Positions 46,955 through 55,390 of a DNA stretch of 64,000 nucleotides are shown here, piece by piece. Source of the DNA: Gammaproteobacteria bacterium (GTDB lineage: Bacteria > Pseudomonadota > Gammaproteobacteria > SZUA-140); contig JACREF010000019.1 of assembly GCA_016218365.1 (NCBI GenBank), positions 68,543 to 132,542 of the forward strand, in the 5' to 3' direction. A program made the position numbers and the translations under genes. Within the stretch, counting starts at the first letter, position 1. Each line of letters begins with the position of its first letter. The notes below the pieces were generated by a model. The model made no database searches, was not told where the DNA came from, and was given only the letters and a program-made list of their open reading frames with translations.

Positions 46955-47214
46955 TCGCTGCTATCCGGCAGGCCAGATGTGCCCTGCCCCTATTCTGTCA
47001 AAATCGTTGCCAGTTCACCACTGATCCTTTAGATTTGCCTGGCCGCCACCCCGGCCGCCCGCCCGGGCTCAAGCGCGCTGCATTCCGGACCGCTAATCCA
47101 CCGGGAACATCTGCCGGAGGCATGACGTCTTACCGCCATGAGGATCACGATGTCCGGCACGCCCCACCCGGGTCGGCCATAACAACTAGAACCTGATCCC
47201 GCTAGGATGGTGCC
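46955..47214. promoter_or_regulatory. Divergent intergenic region with a candidate promoter for the transglutaminase-7TM operon
   Basis: 260 bases between divergent starts, without a gene. A plus-strand candidate is TTGCCA (47007-47012), 17 bases, TAGATT (47030-47035). It would give a leader of about 175 bases. No riboswitch-like conservation is recognised in it. Confidence 0.4.
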
Positions 47215-48825
47215 ATGTCAGCAACGATGACCCCGACAACAAAACGGCTGCTCTATGCCGTGTTCCTTGCCGTGTTGCTGGTGCTGCCGCTGTCGCTGAT
47301 GACCTACAAGCTGCTGTGGCTGAATTACTCGCTGGTCCAGCAGATCCCGTCCACCGCCTACCAGATCGACCTGTCGATGCAGGTCACCGGCAGTGGCCAG
47401 GATATCGAACTGTATACCTATCTGCCGCAGACTGACGCCCGCCAGACCGTCAGTGACGAGACCTCGTCGACCGGTATCTTCACGCTGTCTCTGGAGAACA
47501 AGTCCGGCAACCGCATCGCCCACTGGTCTGCCAGCGATGTCTCGGGTCAGGCCATGACCCGCTTCGGCTTCACCGCCCAGGCCCATCATGTCCGCTATCT
47601 GATCCCGGCAGGATTGCCGATCCCGACCGGCTATGCTGCCGACGTCTCGCGCTATCTGATACCTGAGGAAGGGATCCAGTCCAGCGACCCGCAGATCGCT
47701 GCCGCCGCGGGCAAACTGTTCCCGGAAGGAACGCCGGACCTGCTGACGGCCGCCACCCGCATCCACCGCCAGCTGCAGGACAGCATTGCCAACCGCAATT
47801 TCTCCGGTTATACCGATGCGCTGACGGCACTGAAACTCGGCGAGGCCAGCTGCAATGGCAAGAGCCGGCTGTTTGCGGCCCTGGCGCGATCGCTGAACAT
47901 CCCGGCACGGCTGGTCGGTGGCCTGATCATGGAAAATGGCGACAAACGCACCACCCACCAGTGGGTGGAACTGTATATCAACGGTCACTGGGTGCCATTC
48001 GATACCATCAACGACCACTTTGCCGAATTGCCAGCCAATTACCTGACGCTGTATACCGGCGATCTGGTGCTGTTCCGCCACAGCAGCGACATCAATTTCC
48101 AGTACACCTTCCATGGCAGCAAACGCCTGCAGCCACGCGTTGAGTCAACCGAATCACTGGCTGACACCCCGGCGCTGAACCTGAGCAATATCACCGGCTA
48201 TTTCCAGCAGATCGGCATCTCACAGAACCACCTGAAGATCATCCTGATGATCCCGCTCGGCGCACTGGTGGTGGTGATCTTCCGCAACATCATCGGCCTT
48301 GAGACCTTCGGCACCTTCCTGCCGGCGCTGATCGCCGCCGCGTCACGCGAGACCGGCATCTTATGGGGCATGATCGGCTTTCTGATCATCATCCTGGCTA
48401 CCTCGCTGGTACGGCGCCTGCTCGACTGGATGCAGCTGCTGCATTCACCGAAGATGTCCATCATCCTGACCTGCGTCGTGGTGCTGATGCTGCTGATCAC
48501 GGTGATCAGCGTCGATCTCGGCCAGTTGAGCCTGGCGCATCTGTCATTGTTCCCGATCGCGATCCTGGCCATCACCGCCGAGCGTTTTGCCACCATCGAA
48601 GAAGAACAGGGCTTGTCCAAGGCGTTAAAACTGACGGCCTCGACGATCCTGGTAACGATCTGCACCTACATCGTCATGGCCTCGCTGTTCCTGCAAGGCA
48701 TGATCCTGGCATTCCCCGAGCTGCTGCTGATGCTGGTGCTGTTCAATATCTGGCTCGGCAAATGGGTCGGGATCCGGCTGCTGGAATTCATCCGCTTCCG
48801 CCACCTGATCTTCAAGGACAGCTGA
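47215..48825 (+). CDS. Transglutaminase-like protein fused to seven transmembrane helices
   Basis: 536 residues. An N-terminal helix (LLYAVFLAVLLVLPLSLMTY) is followed by a periplasmic part of about 300 residues. That part contains a transglutaminase-like core: Cys213 in GEASCNGKSRLFAALARSL, His248 in THQWVELYINGHWV, and Asp263 in PFDTIND. Six to seven C-terminal helices follow (about 335-520). The architecture matches the Pfam family described as 'inactive transglutaminase fused to 7 TM helices' (UUP1 type), yet the Cys-His-Asp positions look complete here. The next gene (1 base away) encodes an ATP-grasp ligase, the usual partner. Function unknown; probably envelope peptide or protein modification. 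Confidence 0.9.
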   Translation: MSATMTPTTKRLLYAVFLAVLLVLPLSLMTYKLLWLNYSLVQQIPSTAYQIDLSMQVTGSGQDIELYTYLPQTDARQTVSDETSSTGIFTLSLENKSGNRIAHWSASDVSGQAMTRFGFTAQAHHVRYLIPAGLPIPTGYAADVSRYLIPEEGIQSSDPQIAAAAGKLFPEGTPDLLTAATRIHRQLQDSIANRNFSGYTDALTALKLGEASCNGKSRLFAALARSLNIPARLVGGLIMENGDKRTTHQWVELYINGHWVPFDTINDHFAELPANYLTLYTGDLVLFRHSSDINFQYTFHGSKRLQPRVESTESLADTPALNLSNITGYFQQIGISQNHLKIILMIPLGALVVVIFRNIIGLETFGTFLPALIAAASRETGILWGMIGFLIIILATSLVRRLLDWMQLLHSPKMSIILTCVVVLMLLITVISVDLGQLSLAHLSLFPIAILAITAERFATIEEEQGLSKALKLTASTILVTICTYIVMASLFLQGMILAFPELLLMLVLFNIWLGKWVGIRLLEFIRFRHLIFKDS

Positions 48826-48826
48826 G

Positions 48827-49720
48827 ATGTTTTCCGGGCTGCTCACCCGACTGGCGCGTTACCGGCGCAATGCGGCAACGGTACTGACGATGAACCGGCG
48901 CAATCTCCATTATATCTACCCCAACAACCCGCACGCCCAACTTGAGGTCGCCGATAACAAGCTGGAGACCAAGCTCATGCTGCAGGGCGCCGCCATCCCC
49001 CACGCCCGCACCTATTTTGCCTACCATAATTTCCTGGATCTCAACACACTGGAGCAGAATCTGGCGCTGCTGGACGCGTTCGCCGTCAAGCCGGCACATG
49101 GCAGCGGCGGCAGCGGCATCAAGCTCATCACCGGCCGCCACCCTGACGGTAGCTGGCGCTCGATCAACGGTGAGCGGATCATGCTGGCCGACATCCGCAA
49201 GCATATCTCCGACATCCTCTTCGGCGTCTATGCCTCCGATCTCAATGATATCGCGATCATCGAGGAGATCATCTCCCAGCACGATGAGATGTCGCTGCTC
49301 AGCCCCTATGGCCTGGCCGATATCCGCATGATCATGCATCAGGATCAGCCGGTGATGTCGATGTCCCGGATACCGACCCGACGCTCGGGTGGCCGTGCCA
49401 ACCTGCACCAGGGTGCCGTGGGTGTCGGCATCGATATCCCAACCGGCATGACCCGCAATGTCACCTGGTTTGGAAAGATGATCACCCATCATCCGGACAG
49501 TGGCGTGCAACTGGTCGATCTGCAGATACCGCAATGGCCACAGATCCTCGATATCTGCTATCGCACCGCCCGTGCCTGCCCGCTGAAATACCTCGGCCTG
49601 GACGTTGCCGTCAGCAGCCATGGCCCGATGATCATCGAGATCAATGCCCGGCCCGGACTGACGATCCAGAATGCCAACCTGCGCGGCATGCGCAGCATAC
49701 TGGAGCGTCAGCCGTCATGA
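48827..49720 (+). CDS. ATP-grasp ligase, 'alpha-L-glutamate ligase-like'
   Basis: 297 residues. RRNLHYIYPNNPHAQLEVAD and the ATP-grasp core are visible: FAVKPAHGSGGSGIKLITG (nucleotide-binding Lys and Gly loop), AIIEEIISQHDEMS, PYGLADIRMIMHQDQPVMSM, and the Mg-binding MIIEINARPGLTIQNAN. These enzymes form amide bonds by acyl-phosphate. Partner of the transglutaminase-7TM gene in many marine gammaproteobacteria. Substrate unknown. Stop and next start overlap (ATGA). Confidence 0.9.
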   Translation: MFSGLLTRLARYRRNAATVLTMNRRNLHYIYPNNPHAQLEVADNKLETKLMLQGAAIPHARTYFAYHNFLDLNTLEQNLALLDAFAVKPAHGSGGSGIKLITGRHPDGSWRSINGERIMLADIRKHISDILFGVYASDLNDIAIIEEIISQHDEMSLLSPYGLADIRMIMHQDQPVMSMSRIPTRRSGGRANLHQGAVGVGIDIPTGMTRNVTWFGKMITHHPDSGVQLVDLQIPQWPQILDICYRTARACPLKYLGLDVAVSSHGPMIIEINARPGLTIQNANLRGMRSILERQPS

Positions 49721-51606
49721 AGATCGCGACACTGTTCAAGGAAAGCCTGGTCTCGGTGATGGTGTTGTTGCTTACCATCATCATCGCGCTTGCCTATGTC
49801 GAATACCGTACCCAGCGTGCGGAACAGGAGGTGCGGATCATTGCCATCTCGGCGACCCCCGAGACCGCCGAGTCCCAGAATGATGACGCAGTGGACCAGG
49901 AATCCCTGGACAGCGATGCCGCCGCACCGGCCTCCGACACCGGCAATGACCCCGGCCTTGCGCTGATCAAAGGCAAACGTTACGCCGAGGCCGAGAAACT
50001 CTATCTCGATATGCTTGGCCGCGGTGACAATGCCCACGCCCATGCCATGCTGGCAACCATCTACTCAAGGACCGACCGCTCCGAGCCTGCACTGCTGCAT
50101 ATTGAGCGCGCCATCGCCCTTGAACCCAGCAGTCAGTCACTGCTCTACCTGCGCGGCCTGATCCAGTCCCGCCGCAGTAACTATGACAAGGCGATCCAGT
50201 CCTACCGCGCCGCACTCCGGGTTAACCCCAACCATTTCGAATCGCATTACAATGCCGCGGTCAGCTATATCAAATTAGGGAAATGTCCTGAGGCAATACC
50301 CCATCTGCAGCAGGCCGCTACACTGACCGGCGGCAAGCGCAGGGCCAAGGTCTATTTCAACCTTGGCTACTGCCTGCAACAACGCGACCCCGCACTGGCC
50401 TTGGACCATCTGGACAAGGCGCTACGCCTGATGCCTGACCATATAAAATCACGGTTGTTGCGCGCCAAAATACTCGGCAAACAGCTCGACGGGTTCAATG
50501 CCGCAGTCGCTGAATACCACAAGGTGATCGCGCTGGAACCCAACCGCGCCGCGCATCATTTCCGGCTGGCTCAGCTCTACAGCGATCACCAGGATGTCAA
50601 AAAGGCCATCGCCCACTACACGATATCGCTGCAGATCAACCCGAAATACCTCAAGTCACACTATAATCTTGGCCTGCTGTATCTGAAAGACAGGCAATGG
50701 CGGCAGGCCGCGCAGCAGTTTCGTACCATCATCAACATCGACCCCCGGCATGCCCAGGCCCATTTCAACCTGGGGCGCGCCCTGTCTGGCGATCATCATT
50801 ACGATGAGGCGGTCAGGACCTATCAGCAGGCACTCAGGCTGCAACATGACTACCCCGAGGCCTATCTGAACCTGGGCCTGACCTATGCCAGGATCGGCGA
50901 CCACAAGGCGGCGCTGGCCGCCTACCAGGCGGCAATGAAACAACGCAAGGATTACACCGAAGCATTTTACAACTCGGCACTGCTCCATATCGACGATGGC
51001 AACATGGCCACGGCCGAACAATTGCTGAATACCGCGACCAGGATTGACCCGGATCATTACCGCTCGTGGACCAGCCTGGGCCTGATTAAATTCAGACAAA
51101 AGAATTATCAGCAGGCCGTAATCTATTATCAGCAGGCATTACGCCTGCGCCCGAACCATATCGAGGTCAGTCTGAATCTGGCGCAGACCTATCGCCAGAT
51201 GGGCCGAGGCAATGCGGCCGTGTCTCTTTACCGGGATATCCTCAAGCGCGCCCCTGACAACACCAGGGCATTGACCGAGCTTGGCATTACCTACTATTAC
51301 CTGGAAGATCCCGCTGCCGCCACCAACGTCTTCAATCAGCTGCTGACACTCAAGCCTGATGACCGCGACGCCCTGTTCTATCTATCCAGGACCCAGCTGG
51401 CCGCACGCAACTACCAGGCTGCGAGCCACACACTGAATCACCTGCTTGACCTGGCACCGGATGATATCGGTATCCGGCTGGATTATGCGGCCACGCTGCG
51501 TGCGCTGGGGGAAAATGCCGCTGCCAGACAACAACTCAACAAGATTCTGAAGCTTGACCCTGCCAACGCCAAGGCGTTGGAGCTACTCAAACAACTGCCG
51601 CTATAG
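49717..51606 (+). CDS. Membrane-anchored TPR protein
   Basis: 629 residues from ATG 49717. An N-terminal helix (SVMVLLLTIIIALAYVEY) anchors it, facing the periplasm. After an acidic linker, roughly 15 TPR units fill about residues 85-625 (for example YLRGLIQSRRSNYDKAIQSY, HYNLGLLYLKDRQWRQAAQQ, AYLNLGLTYARIGDHKAALA). TPRs make protein-protein scaffolds. Position between the ATP-grasp gene and the outer-membrane barrel gene suggests it links the inner-membrane and outer-membrane parts; that is inference. Confidence 0.88.
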   Translation: MKIATLFKESLVSVMVLLLTIIIALAYVEYRTQRAEQEVRIIAISATPETAESQNDDAVDQESLDSDAAAPASDTGNDPGLALIKGKRYAEAEKLYLDMLGRGDNAHAHAMLATIYSRTDRSEPALLHIERAIALEPSSQSLLYLRGLIQSRRSNYDKAIQSYRAALRVNPNHFESHYNAAVSYIKLGKCPEAIPHLQQAATLTGGKRRAKVYFNLGYCLQQRDPALALDHLDKALRLMPDHIKSRLLRAKILGKQLDGFNAAVAEYHKVIALEPNRAAHHFRLAQLYSDHQDVKKAIAHYTISLQINPKYLKSHYNLGLLYLKDRQWRQAAQQFRTIINIDPRHAQAHFNLGRALSGDHHYDEAVRTYQQALRLQHDYPEAYLNLGLTYARIGDHKAALAAYQAAMKQRKDYTEAFYNSALLHIDDGNMATAEQLLNTATRIDPDHYRSWTSLGLIKFRQKNYQQAVIYYQQALRLRPNHIEVSLNLAQTYRQMGRGNAAVSLYRDILKRAPDNTRALTELGITYYYLEDPAAATNVFNQLLTLKPDDRDALFYLSRTQLAARNYQAASHTLNHLLDLAPDDIGIRLDYAATLRALGENAAARQQLNKILKLDPANAKALELLKQLPL

Positions 51607-51663
51607 GAATAATCTTAATTTATCACCGTATCTAAACACCACCTGTCCAGAGGGGAGAATTGA

Positions 51664-52836
51664 ATGAAACGTCACGCACTGAATACGTCGATCTTGCTCG
51701 GCCTGTCACTCAGCCCCGCCATCGTCCTGGCCGCAACCGAACCTGCACTGACGGTAACGGCCTCCACGGCCATCGCTTACGACAGCAATACCTACCAGAG
51801 CCCATCGGCAGACTACGACGACCCGAACCTGCCACCACCCACGCTGGTCACGCCTACGGTCCAGTCCGGACTGCTGACCGATCTTGGCCTCAATGCTGAA
51901 TACAGACTTGCCGGAACCCGCGCCGAACCGGCAACACTGAGTTATGATTTCAAGGGGCGCATCTATCTGGACAGCGCGCTCACTAACGCCAACGAGTACA
52001 TGAATACCCTGCGCCTGGGAAAGTTGGCCACTACAGGAAAAGCGTCAAGCCTGGACACCGGTCTCTCGCTGCACCTTTCACGCCAGATCTATTATGACCA
52101 TGACAGTGGCGATAACAAGCTGACCTCCGCAACGGCAACTGATATCTCCAACCGTTACAACTATAATGCACTGGCGGCGGATGCCAGCTGGACGATCAAG
52201 GCCCACGGCATCGACTATACTGTCACCGGCGAACTGGAATCGCGCAACTATGAAGACCCGATCGTCGTCTCCCAATATGATCAGGACCGCATGTTGCTGA
52301 CCGGCAAGATGGAGATCCCGCTCAATAGCAGCAACAAGTTCAAACTCGGTTACAGCTACCACACCATTGACTACACCAGCAAACAGGCCCGCACCCTGAC
52401 CGCCGTCACCACCGGGGCTCCCAACCTGTCCTATACCTATGAAGATCTGACCGGCACGCTGTTGCTGCGCCAGGGACAGAATACCCGGTACTATTTCGAT
52501 TACACTCATAGTGATCGCAGCGACGGCTTTGTGGGTTACAATGATTATGCCGCTAATGAGTTCAAACTGCGTATCCTGACTGCCAGTGCTGGCATCAAGA
52601 CCCGGCTGGCCGTCGCCGTCCAGGACCGCGACTACCCGCATGCGCTGGCCTTTGATAAAGTAGGTCAGGCGAACAAGACCTATTCCAAGACCAGCGTGGA
52701 CCTGACATTCAGCGACATCACACTGGCAGGGCGGCCATGGTGGATAGACATTGGCTATGACAATCAGGATACCAATGATCTGCGTTACAACTACGACCGC
52801 TATCTGGCAACCCTTGGCACCGACTGGGAGCTGTAA
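51664..52836 (+). CDS. Outer-membrane beta-barrel protein
   Basis: 390 residues, preceded by a good ribosome site (GGGGAG). Signal peptide LGLSLSPAIVLAA. The rest alternates polar and aromatic beta strands (TVTASTAIAYDSNTY, LSYDFKGRIYLDS, FKLGYSYHTIDYTS, TRYYFDYTHSDRSDGF) typical of a barrel of about 14-16 strands. It ends LATLGTDWEL, not the usual Phe/Trp. No family recognised. It lies 57 bases after the TPR gene on the same strand. Confidence 0.82.
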   Translation: MKRHALNTSILLGLSLSPAIVLAATEPALTVTASTAIAYDSNTYQSPSADYDDPNLPPPTLVTPTVQSGLLTDLGLNAEYRLAGTRAEPATLSYDFKGRIYLDSALTNANEYMNTLRLGKLATTGKASSLDTGLSLHLSRQIYYDHDSGDNKLTSATATDISNRYNYNALAADASWTIKAHGIDYTVTGELESRNYEDPIVVSQYDQDRMLLTGKMEIPLNSSNKFKLGYSYHTIDYTSKQARTLTAVTTGAPNLSYTYEDLTGTLLLRQGQNTRYYFDYTHSDRSDGFVGYNDYAANEFKLRILTASAGIKTRLAVAVQDRDYPHALAFDKVGQANKTYSKTSVDLTFSDITLAGRPWWIDIGYDNQDTNDLRYNYDRYLATLGTDWEL

Positions 52837-52856: not shown

Positions 52857-54455
52857 ATGCCTGATCCCGGGCATCCGCAACCTATCGATCATCGCATACC
52901 CGGGGCGCTGTTGCGCCCCGCAGCCTTTCCGCACCCGGCCGATGACCTGCAACTGATCGAGACCCATATCTCATGGGTGATCCTGGCCGGTGACTATGCC
53001 TACAAGATCAAAAAACCTGTCAACCTGGGCTTCCTGGACTTCTCCACGCTGGCAAACAGGCGCCACTACTGCACCGAGGAACTGCGGCTCAATCGTCGCC
53101 TTGCCGCCAGCTATTATCTTGAGCTGTCACCAATTACCGCAAGCCCCGAGGGACCGGTCGTCGACGGCAACGGCGATATCATTGAGTACGCGGTCAGGAT
53201 GCGGCGTCTTCCTGCGCACGCCTTGCTCAAGGACCGGCTATCGACACAGCCCGTACCCGCCACATTGCTCGATAAGCTGGCTGACCAGATCGCACGCTTT
53301 CACCAGCAGGTCGCTGTAGCCACCAGCGATACCCTCTATGGTGACCCGGATCGGGTAGCCGCCCCGGTGCTGGATAATGTCACGACACTGCGCCGGCTGC
53401 TCACCACTGAACAATCCGTCATGTTACTGGACAGGCTGGAAGGCTGGTTGAGATCACAGCTCACGGTCCTGCAACCCCTGCTGGCGCAACGCAAACAACA
53501 GGGATTCATCCGCGAATGCCATGGCGATCTTCATCTCGGCAATATCGCTGTGGTGGATCATGACATCGTGATCTTTGACTGCCTGGAGTTCAATGCCGAG
53601 CTGCGCTGGACGGATACCTTCAACGAACTGGCATTTCTGGTCATGGATCTGCATGCGGCCAAACAATGGCCGGCCGCACAACAACTGTTAAACCGCTACC
53701 TGGAGCATACCGGTGACTATCCGGGCCTGCGCCTGCTGGATTTCTATTGCTGCTATCGCGCCATGGTGCGCGCCAAGGTCTGTGCGCTGCAGGCCAGCCA
53801 GCACGCGGCACCGTCTGAACAACGGCGGGATCTGTTGGATCAGGCCCAGCGCTATCTGATGCTTGCCTGCCATTATCAGCGCCCCCGCACGCCGGCCTTG
53901 ATCCTGACCCATGGCTATTCCGGCTCCGGAAAATCGACGATCACCGGACGCTTGCTGCAGCAGCTTGGCGCCATCCGCATCCGCTCCGACATCGAGCGCC
54001 GGCGTCCTCCGCACACCCCGGCAGTTTCTGCCGTCAATCAGGGCAATTATTCACCCCAGGCCCGGGCCACTGTTTATCACCGTCTGCTGGCCCTGTCTGA
54101 GCACATCACCCGCGCTGGCTTTCCGGTGATCGTCGATGCCACATTTCTCCAGGCTTGGCAGCGCCAGCTGTTCGTGGAACTGGGCCGCTCATGCAAGCTG
54201 CCGCTGCTGATCCTGGACTGCCAGGCCCCTGACACCGTGCTGCGTCGCTGGATCACACAGCGTCAGGCCCTGCGTCAGGATCCGTCCGAAGCCACCCTCG
54301 AGGTCCTTGCTATGCAACAACGCACTGCACAGCCATTGACCACAGATGAACAGGCATGCGCCATCGTCGTTGACACAACAACCGACGTTGATATCGCGCA
54401 ACTGGCTGGCAACATCATCAGGCGCCTGCGGCTTGACCTCCCCGCAGACTGGTGA
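52857..54455 (+). CDS. Two-domain kinase: aminoglycoside-phosphotransferase fold plus P-loop kinase
   Basis: 532 residues. N-terminal part (about 20-340) resembles APH/protein kinases: DYAYKIKKPVNLGFLDF, catalytic ECHGDLHLGNIAVVD and DCLEFNAELRWTDTFNELAF. The C-terminal part is a P-loop kinase with THGYSGSGKSTITGRLL (about 355-371) and RIRSDIERRR. This fusion is widespread as 'bifunctional aminoglycoside phosphotransferase/ATP-binding protein'; its real substrate is unknown and drug resistance should not be assumed. It lies 20 bases after the barrel gene and may belong to the same transcript. Confidence 0.87.
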   Translation: MPDPGHPQPIDHRIPGALLRPAAFPHPADDLQLIETHISWVILAGDYAYKIKKPVNLGFLDFSTLANRRHYCTEELRLNRRLAASYYLELSPITASPEGPVVDGNGDIIEYAVRMRRLPAHALLKDRLSTQPVPATLLDKLADQIARFHQQVAVATSDTLYGDPDRVAAPVLDNVTTLRRLLTTEQSVMLLDRLEGWLRSQLTVLQPLLAQRKQQGFIRECHGDLHLGNIAVVDHDIVIFDCLEFNAELRWTDTFNELAFLVMDLHAAKQWPAAQQLLNRYLEHTGDYPGLRLLDFYCCYRAMVRAKVCALQASQHAAPSEQRRDLLDQAQRYLMLACHYQRPRTPALILTHGYSGSGKSTITGRLLQQLGAIRIRSDIERRRPPHTPAVSAVNQGNYSPQARATVYHRLLALSEHITRAGFPVIVDATFLQAWQRQLFVELGRSCKLPLLILDCQAPDTVLRRWITQRQALRQDPSEATLEVLAMQQRTAQPLTTDEQACAIVVDTTTDVDIAQLAGNIIRRLRLDLPADW

Positions 54456-54472
54456 AACGACAGGGTATCGCC

Positions 54473-55390
54473 TCAGCGCGTACTGCGATCGATAGTCAGC
54501 GGCAGGCAACGACCGACCGATTCAGGCGCGCACAATGAACCGTCGATCCATTTGGCCTTGCCAAGGTTGGCATTGGAAAAATCCGCACCATCGATGATGG
54601 CGCCGGTCAAATCGGCATACGACAGATCCGCATCCTGCAGCAGGGCCTCGGAAAGGATGGCCCCTCGCAGACTGACCCCTTTCAGATTGCCGCCGGTCAG
54701 TGTCGCCCCTTCCAGATGACTCTGATCGAGTATCGAGAATGCCAGACTGGCCTCGGCTAGATTGCTGTGATGCAGGTCGGCGCCGCGCAGGTCCATATTC
54801 TCCATCGAGGCCTTGCGCAGACTGATGTTGGCCAGTTGCCCACCACGCTTCTGGCAATTATCCCAGCGCACCATGGGCTCCGCCACGGCATTGCAATCGA
54901 TGTCCGGTATCTGCGGCGACCGGGGTGACTGGTAGACCAGCCAGGCCACCACGGCGCAGAACAGCAGCGCCCCGAAGATAAACCGATTGCGCAGGCTGGA
55001 GGCTGTCGTATCCCTGCTGGCATCTGCCGCGGCAGTGGATATATGCACGGCCGGCGGCACCCCGTCCTCCATCTCCTCGCGCCGTTCGTCACCGTCTGGC
55101 ACGGCTGTGGACACAGCGCCGCGCCGTTCATCCGCCCAGCGGCGCGCTGCCTTCAATCGATCACGCTCAAAGGGATCTTCGAGGTTGCCCTTCATGACAT
55201 CCGGGATAAAATCCGTCGCATAGGCCACTTGAACCCAGATCTTCTGATCGGAACTGATCTGGTCAGAGAACCGGATGCGACCCAGCAGGATATAACGGCT
55301 AATCAGCCCGGCGGGGTAGGGTCCATACACCTTCCCCCCCTGGGCATAGTACCAGCGATTGCCGCTCGATTTCTCATCATGAATCTTCAC
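54473..55390 (-). CDS. GYF-like domain, transmembrane helix and pentapeptide-repeat protein
   Basis: 305 residues. The N-terminus RWYYAQGGKVYGPYPAGLIS continuing to QKIWVQVAYATDF is a GYF_2-type domain (about 12-62), which in bacteria binds proline-rich peptides. A charged linker leads to one helix (FIFGALLFCAVVAWLVYQ, about 147-164). Pentapeptide repeats (A[D/N]LxG-like) fill about 195-280: ANISLRKASMENMDLRGADL, SHLEGATLTGGNLKGVSLRG, DADLSYADLTGAIIDGADFS. The repeats lie on the outer side of the membrane if the GYF part is cytoplasmic. Role unknown. Convergent with the kinase gene. Confidence 0.85.
   Translation of the reverse strand: MKIHDEKSSGNRWYYAQGGKVYGPYPAGLISRYILLGRIRFSDQISSDQKIWVQVAYATDFIPDVMKGNLEDPFERDRLKAARRWADERRGAVSTAVPDGDERREEMEDGVPPAVHISTAAADASRDTTASSLRNRFIFGALLFCAVVAWLVYQSPRSPQIPDIDCNAVAEPMVRWDNCQKRGGQLANISLRKASMENMDLRGADLHHSNLAEASLAFSILDQSHLEGATLTGGNLKGVSLRGAILSEALLQDADLSYADLTGAIIDGADFSNANLGKAKWIDGSLCAPESVGRCLPLTIDRSTR

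Follow-up and report, generated by a model that had tools for sequence, protein, structure and literature searches.

Four adjacent genes on one strand of a contig from an SZUA-140 bacterium of the Gammaproteobacteria raise the question of whether they form a single system and, if so, what that system makes and where the product goes. The contig (JACREF010000019.1 of assembly GCA_016218365.1) was analyzed over positions 68,543 to 132,542 of its forward strand; this whole stretch of 64,000 nt is referred to as the window, and its own coordinates are used below. An earlier note, made from the letters of the DNA, had placed the four + strand genes at 47215-52836 with spacings of 1, -4 and 57 bases, and had read them as coding for a membrane protein with a papain-like domain, a ligase, an anchored TPR protein and an outer-membrane barrel. 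The coordinates and spacings are exact, and all four gene types are borne out by Pfam and by an AlphaFold2 (AF2) model of the barrel. The features are as follows:

47007..47035, + strand: weak promoter-like site (9/12 matches), about 180 bases 5' of the transglutaminase-7TM gene
47215..48825, + strand: transglutaminase-7TM protein, 536 aa (PF01841, PF14400, PF14402, AF2, Foldseek)
47851..47853, + strand: codon of the predicted catalytic Cys213, motif EASCNGKS
47956..47958, + strand: codon of the predicted catalytic His248, motif THQWVE
48001..48003, + strand: codon of the predicted catalytic Asp263, motif WVPFDTIND
48827..49720, + strand: ATP-grasp ligase, 297 aa, RloC/RimK-like (PF14397, TIGR02291 under its cut-off, motifs)
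49717..51606, + strand: anchored TPR protein, 629 aa (Pfam TPR families, orthologue in 19/19 complete loci)
51664..52836, + strand: outer-membrane barrel, 390 aa, with a signal peptide and 16 predicted strands (alignment, AF2, profile search of 369 genomes)

The TPR gene starts at 49717, overlapping the ligase stop by 4 bases (ATGA); the longer start at 49534 given by the ORF lister falls within the ligase gene. No terminator-like sites were found on the + strand between the four genes, and the counts of promoter-like and terminator-like sites are not clearly above the chance level. A search for known RNA elements found none.

A scan of one-genome-per-species contigs with the transglutaminase-7TM gene as the query gave 14 loci from several phyla, to which loci from whole-genome searches were added. 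The four genes occur in the same order and direction in all 19 loci with enough flanking sequence, the window included; these span the Gammaproteobacteria, the Nitrosomonadales (Betaproteobacteria), another class of Pseudomonadota, the Nitrospirota and the Deltaproteobacteria/Myxococcota, and six further loci of the same type (L002, L005, L006, L010, L013 and L116) end at contig edges and stand outside the count. From the first to the fourth gene, median pairwise identity falls from 62 through 52 and 36 to 30 percent, and pairwise distances correlate between the four proteins with r values of 0.59 to 0.81, from which host relatedness is not removed. Since the order is kept in 19/19 loci although the relatives' barrels are only 28-39% identical to that of the window, it is not due to chance. 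Moreover, the TPR and barrel ORFs overlap in L004, L008, L009 and L047, which argues for co-transcription. The earlier note had staked its reading on the TPR and barrel genes being tied to the first pair, and would have given it up had they been unlinked or separately transcribed elsewhere; instead, the order it had proposed to check is intact in every complete locus, and the linkage is universal in this lineage. Thus, the four genes almost certainly constitute one functional unit. Universal linkage and overlapping ORFs also make it natural to read the locus as an envelope pathway that includes a delivery arm, as the earlier note had suggested; its further proposal, that the product is an envelope modification, is one option beside a free polymer and an exported peptide.

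The distribution of the barrel agrees with this linkage. Across 369 genomes of the class, matches to PF14402 are mostly high-scoring proteins of the RloB type (see below), with a small set near 180 bits that includes the window. A profile of the barrel has a strong match in eight of the 369, and seven of these eight carry a transglutaminase of the window type; an overlap of 7 between two sets of 8 has a hypergeometric P of 3.7e-13, an indicative value, as related genomes are non-independent. The count places the fusion genome G181 in the window-type set. In the eighth barrel genome (G167) the barrel stands alone, remote from any live-transglutaminase locus, and carries N-terminal TPRs of its own (L099:7554-9173, - strand), which shows that a direct fusion to TPRs occurs in the barrel family.

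Several loci deviate from the common layout. The fusion genome G181 has its transglutaminase, 7TM and ATP-grasp parts in one protein of 838 aa (L052:6475-8991) with an intact triad, and an overlapping TPR gene comes next; no barrel of the window's family was found in that genome. The fusion makes it very likely that the products of the first two genes act together. A Bacteroidota cousin from the Saprospiraceae (L014:8025-11909) combines a live triad with a putative barrel gene, with no TPR gene recognized, and is possibly a shorter version of the four-gene system. In another cousin from the Bacteroidota (L015) the transglutaminase lacks the Cys. Beside the four genes, neither a fifth gene nor a substrate is universally conserved across the loci: a second TPR protein, in some cases YbgF/CpoB/YfiO-like, lies upstream in six loci (L003, L006, L013, L047, L048 and L050), and a PepSY-like membrane protein is found at four loci of another Pseudomonadota class. 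In the window itself, a gene at 52857-54455, starting 20 bases past the barrel, codes for an aminoglycoside-phosphotransferase-like N-terminal half joined to an AAA_33/zeta-toxin-like kinase C-terminal half; it was considered as a member of the unit and set aside, no relative being seen at the related loci read. On the opposite strand, 54473-55390 encodes a pentapeptide-repeat protein with a separate N-terminal region.

What the unit does must be sought first in its core. The product of the first gene matches 7TM_transglut (PF14402, 176 bits) and the transglutaminase core (PF01841, 71 bits), as well as the N-terminal region PF14400. In its AF2 model (pLDDT 86.5) an N-terminal membrane helix is followed by a periplasmic beta domain with the papain/transglutaminase core, and then by a helical 7TM domain. 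By Foldseek the transglutaminase region resembles 3isr, and the 7TM part is unmatched among the 50 matches listed. With the PF01841 fold and the Cys213-His248-Asp263 triad intact, the protein is, from its sequence, a live-looking papain-like enzyme; among the proteins aligned, the predicted triad is kept by all of the four-gene type and by none of the RloB type. The 7TM domain was also considered as a homologue of CapC/PgsC, the membrane subunit of poly-glutamate synthase (PF14102), and this was rejected as unsupported: a Pfam scan at E<=10 gave no match to the family, and in hhalign comparisons of the 7TM part with CapC domains from relatives 6/60 reversed or block-shuffled controls scored equal or higher. 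Another family of Pseudomonadota (L083-L093) has ORFs about 1085 aa long, in which two CapC (PF14102) domains stand in tandem and the C-terminal region is long. The second gene codes for an ATP-grasp protein (PF14397, 211 bits) whose motifs KPA.G.GG, ADxR, GxANLHQG and LEIN.RPG are intact and conserved in the 19 loci, and whose closest solved structures are RimK-type glutamate ligases; no signal peptide was found, so the ligase is presumably cytoplasmic.

A pair of this kind is known from the RloABC (retropepsin-like osmotic stress tolerance) operon of P. aeruginosa, where a transglutaminase-7TM gene likewise adjoins and precedes an ATP-grasp gene; the 7TM parts are homologous (hhalign, E 1e-45). 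The earlier note had called the pair uncharacterized; RloB and RloC were in fact studied genetically in 2025 (PMC12239564). It had also taken the locus for the known pair with two genes added, a view that gives way to that of a lineage of its own, which lacks the retropepsin and whose transglutaminase looks live. RloB has a dead transglutaminase, in contrast to the intact triad of the four-gene protein, and the four-gene ligase scores 244 bits against TIGR02291, under the cut-off of 314 that RloC passes (478 bits for the RloC adjoining RloA and RloB in L063). Against NF052267 (RloB) the window protein scores 177 bits, with a narrow cut-off of 900 that lies above even the 473 of an RloB-type homologue beside RloA. 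A gene for a retropepsin of the RloA type, RloA being secreted, adjoins RloB in 23/23 RloB-type neighborhoods, in none of which (0/23) a TPR or barrel match was found; conversely, no retropepsin was found in the fetched flanks of 18 four-gene relatives (0/18), in the window, or anywhere in the window's own genome, and retropepsin is absent from 12 of 20 genomes searched, mostly carriers of the four genes. When a tree is built from the 7TM part only, so that the triad is excluded, the four-gene and RloB groups separate with no mixing; the clade that unites the four-gene set with the fusion and the Bacteroidota cousins has an SH-aLRT support of 97, the four-gene set by itself 89 and RloB 91. Phyla are intermixed within the four-gene branch, as horizontal transfer predicts, on inner branches that are poorly supported. 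Judged by this tree and these neighborhoods, the four-gene locus is a separate lineage, a cousin of RloB/RloC with reciprocal features. A third type of 7TM_transglut protein (L053-L061) has a dead triad, a retropepsin nearby in 7/8 cases and often no adjacent RloC; other RimK-like ATP-grasp genes lie near it in L057 and L060. No paper describing the four-gene set was found among those searched, a mention in a 2009 survey of amidoligases (PMC3268129) being possible; the system is apparently an undescribed relative of Rlo, with a known core in a new lineage, with other partners and with the transglutaminase in the opposite state.

The partners are a TPR protein, with many repeats after an N-terminal membrane anchor, and the barrel. 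An alignment of the 12-member barrel family gave an AF2 model with a mean pLDDT of 83, in which DSSP assigns 16 long strands. The window member has no match in Pfam or NCBIfam; naming it by a solved structure was tried and abandoned, since a PDB profile search gave no match and the fold matches from Foldseek are generic porins, many in number, with the PgaA and BcsC barrels among them. The charge of the lumen, considered as a clue to a polyanionic cargo, is predicted to be mixed, without a consistent positive bias. The evidence points to an unnamed, widespread family of barrels. The TPR region matches PF24575 of Slam, the surface lipoprotein assembly modulators (71.6 bits, cut-off 35.2), a score that generic TPRs can reach; unlike Slam, however, the TPR and barrel parts are on separate genes, and none of the 12 barrels matches any Slam family at E<=1.

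The Rlo work offers a lead to the product. In vitro, polyglutamate is cut by RloA, and a P. aeruginosa strain without RloA proteases is rescued when RloB or RloC is lost (PMC12239564); together, these findings fit a scenario in which RloBC makes what RloA removes. What a core of the RloBC type makes would then be a peptide, or something like polyglutamate, that arrives in the periplasm and needs cutting. The reciprocal pattern, a live transglutaminase with an outlet versus a dead one with a retropepsin, likewise hints at a product of the core that has to be cut, exported in the four-gene version and degraded in the Rlo version. In the mechanism that we propose, the cytoplasmic ATP-grasp ligase would build a peptide or poly-amino-acid chain from amino acids, perhaps glutamate by analogy with RimK and with the specificity of RloA; the chain, or its carrier, would be moved over the inner membrane by the 7TM domain; in the periplasm, the papain-like domain would cut it or hand it to an acceptor; and the TPR protein, with its anchor in the inner membrane, would span the periplasm as far as the barrel, by which the product might exit or reach the surface, as in synthase-dependent polysaccharide exporters. 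RloA would do the cutting in the periplasm in the Rlo version, with the transglutaminase dead, and in the four-gene version the transglutaminase would be live and the barrel the outlet. We put the chances of this sequence of events, taken as a whole, a little below even. Besides the gene order, the co-occurrence and the reciprocal pattern with Rlo, it is favored by the fusions, by the match of some barrels to EpsL (see below) and by the PgaA and BcsC barrels among the fold matches; the unsupported likeness to CapC/PgsC, the lack of a 7TM match among the 50 listed, the generic barrel matches, the mixed lumen charge and the deviating Bacteroidota cousins count against it. Its boldest form, in which the ligase and the live-transglutaminase 7TM protein make a non-ribosomal peptide polymer that the TPR-plus-barrel outlet exports to the surface by a new Gram-negative secretion pathway, is put forward tentatively.

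Possibly, the locus is a modification system instead. Ligase and live transglutaminase may attach amino acids or peptides to a component of the envelope, be it peptidoglycan, a lipoprotein or the barrel itself, with the TPR protein and the barrel serving as acceptor, scaffold or outer-membrane anchor rather than as an export channel. RimK-type ligases put glutamate on proteins, transglutaminases crosslink, TPR proteins are general scaffolds, and the cell-shape and ampicillin phenotypes of rloB and rloC mutants suggest an involvement of the wall (PMC12239564). RimK/RimB, which glutamylates ribosomal S6 and to which the ligase is akin by its ATP-grasp family and by its nearest solved structures, has a cytoplasmic target and no envelope genes, and no RimB-family protease was found in the window's own genome. 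An acceptor beyond the inner membrane would require a route through the 7TM part for a ligase that is presumably cytoplasmic, and no conserved candidate acceptor gene adjoins the four genes.

It is rather improbable that the pathway is linked to a polysaccharide, the ATP-grasp protein decorating a saccharide or lipid-linked precursor with an amino acid, and the TPR protein and an EpsL-like barrel exporting the polysaccharide so modified. PF14397, to which the ligase has its 211-bit match, is named 'sugar-transfer associated', and a periplasmic TPR array with a predicted 16-strand barrel recalls the synthase-dependent exporters PgaA, BcsC, PelB and AlgK/AlgE; moreover, 4/12 of the barrels match EpsL (TIGR03014, best E 2e-9), the XrtB/PEP-CTERM polysaccharide outer-membrane protein. 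The window barrel itself does not match EpsL and its linked genes differ; it has no sequence kinship to the solved exporter barrels, and the TPR part is a separate protein anchored in the inner membrane. Against this reading, no gene family, and hence no glycosyltransferase, is conserved beside the four genes across the loci, nor is there a glycosyltransferase among the four, and the barrel is almost confined to genomes with this transglutaminase/ligase pair. A role in regulated proteolysis, with the papain-like domain as a periplasmic protease that frees a surface protein as LapG does and the ligase modulating it, accords with the intact Cys-His-Asp triad and the transglutaminase/cysteine-protease-like fold, but is very unlikely, as no adhesin or secretion gene family is conserved beside the locus and the invariant ligase and barrel would be left unexplained.

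In any event, the locus is best explained, as far as gene order and sequence comparison can tell, as a trans-envelope machine related to, and distinct from, the RloBC core. Rlo proteins affect antibiotic tolerance, biofilm formation and cell shape in P. aeruginosa, and the four-gene lineage makes the question of their substrate and purpose testable. As a sister lineage of Rlo, it is also a candidate for a new export pathway, which, if the proposal is true, would be a peptide counterpart of synthase-dependent polysaccharide secretion.
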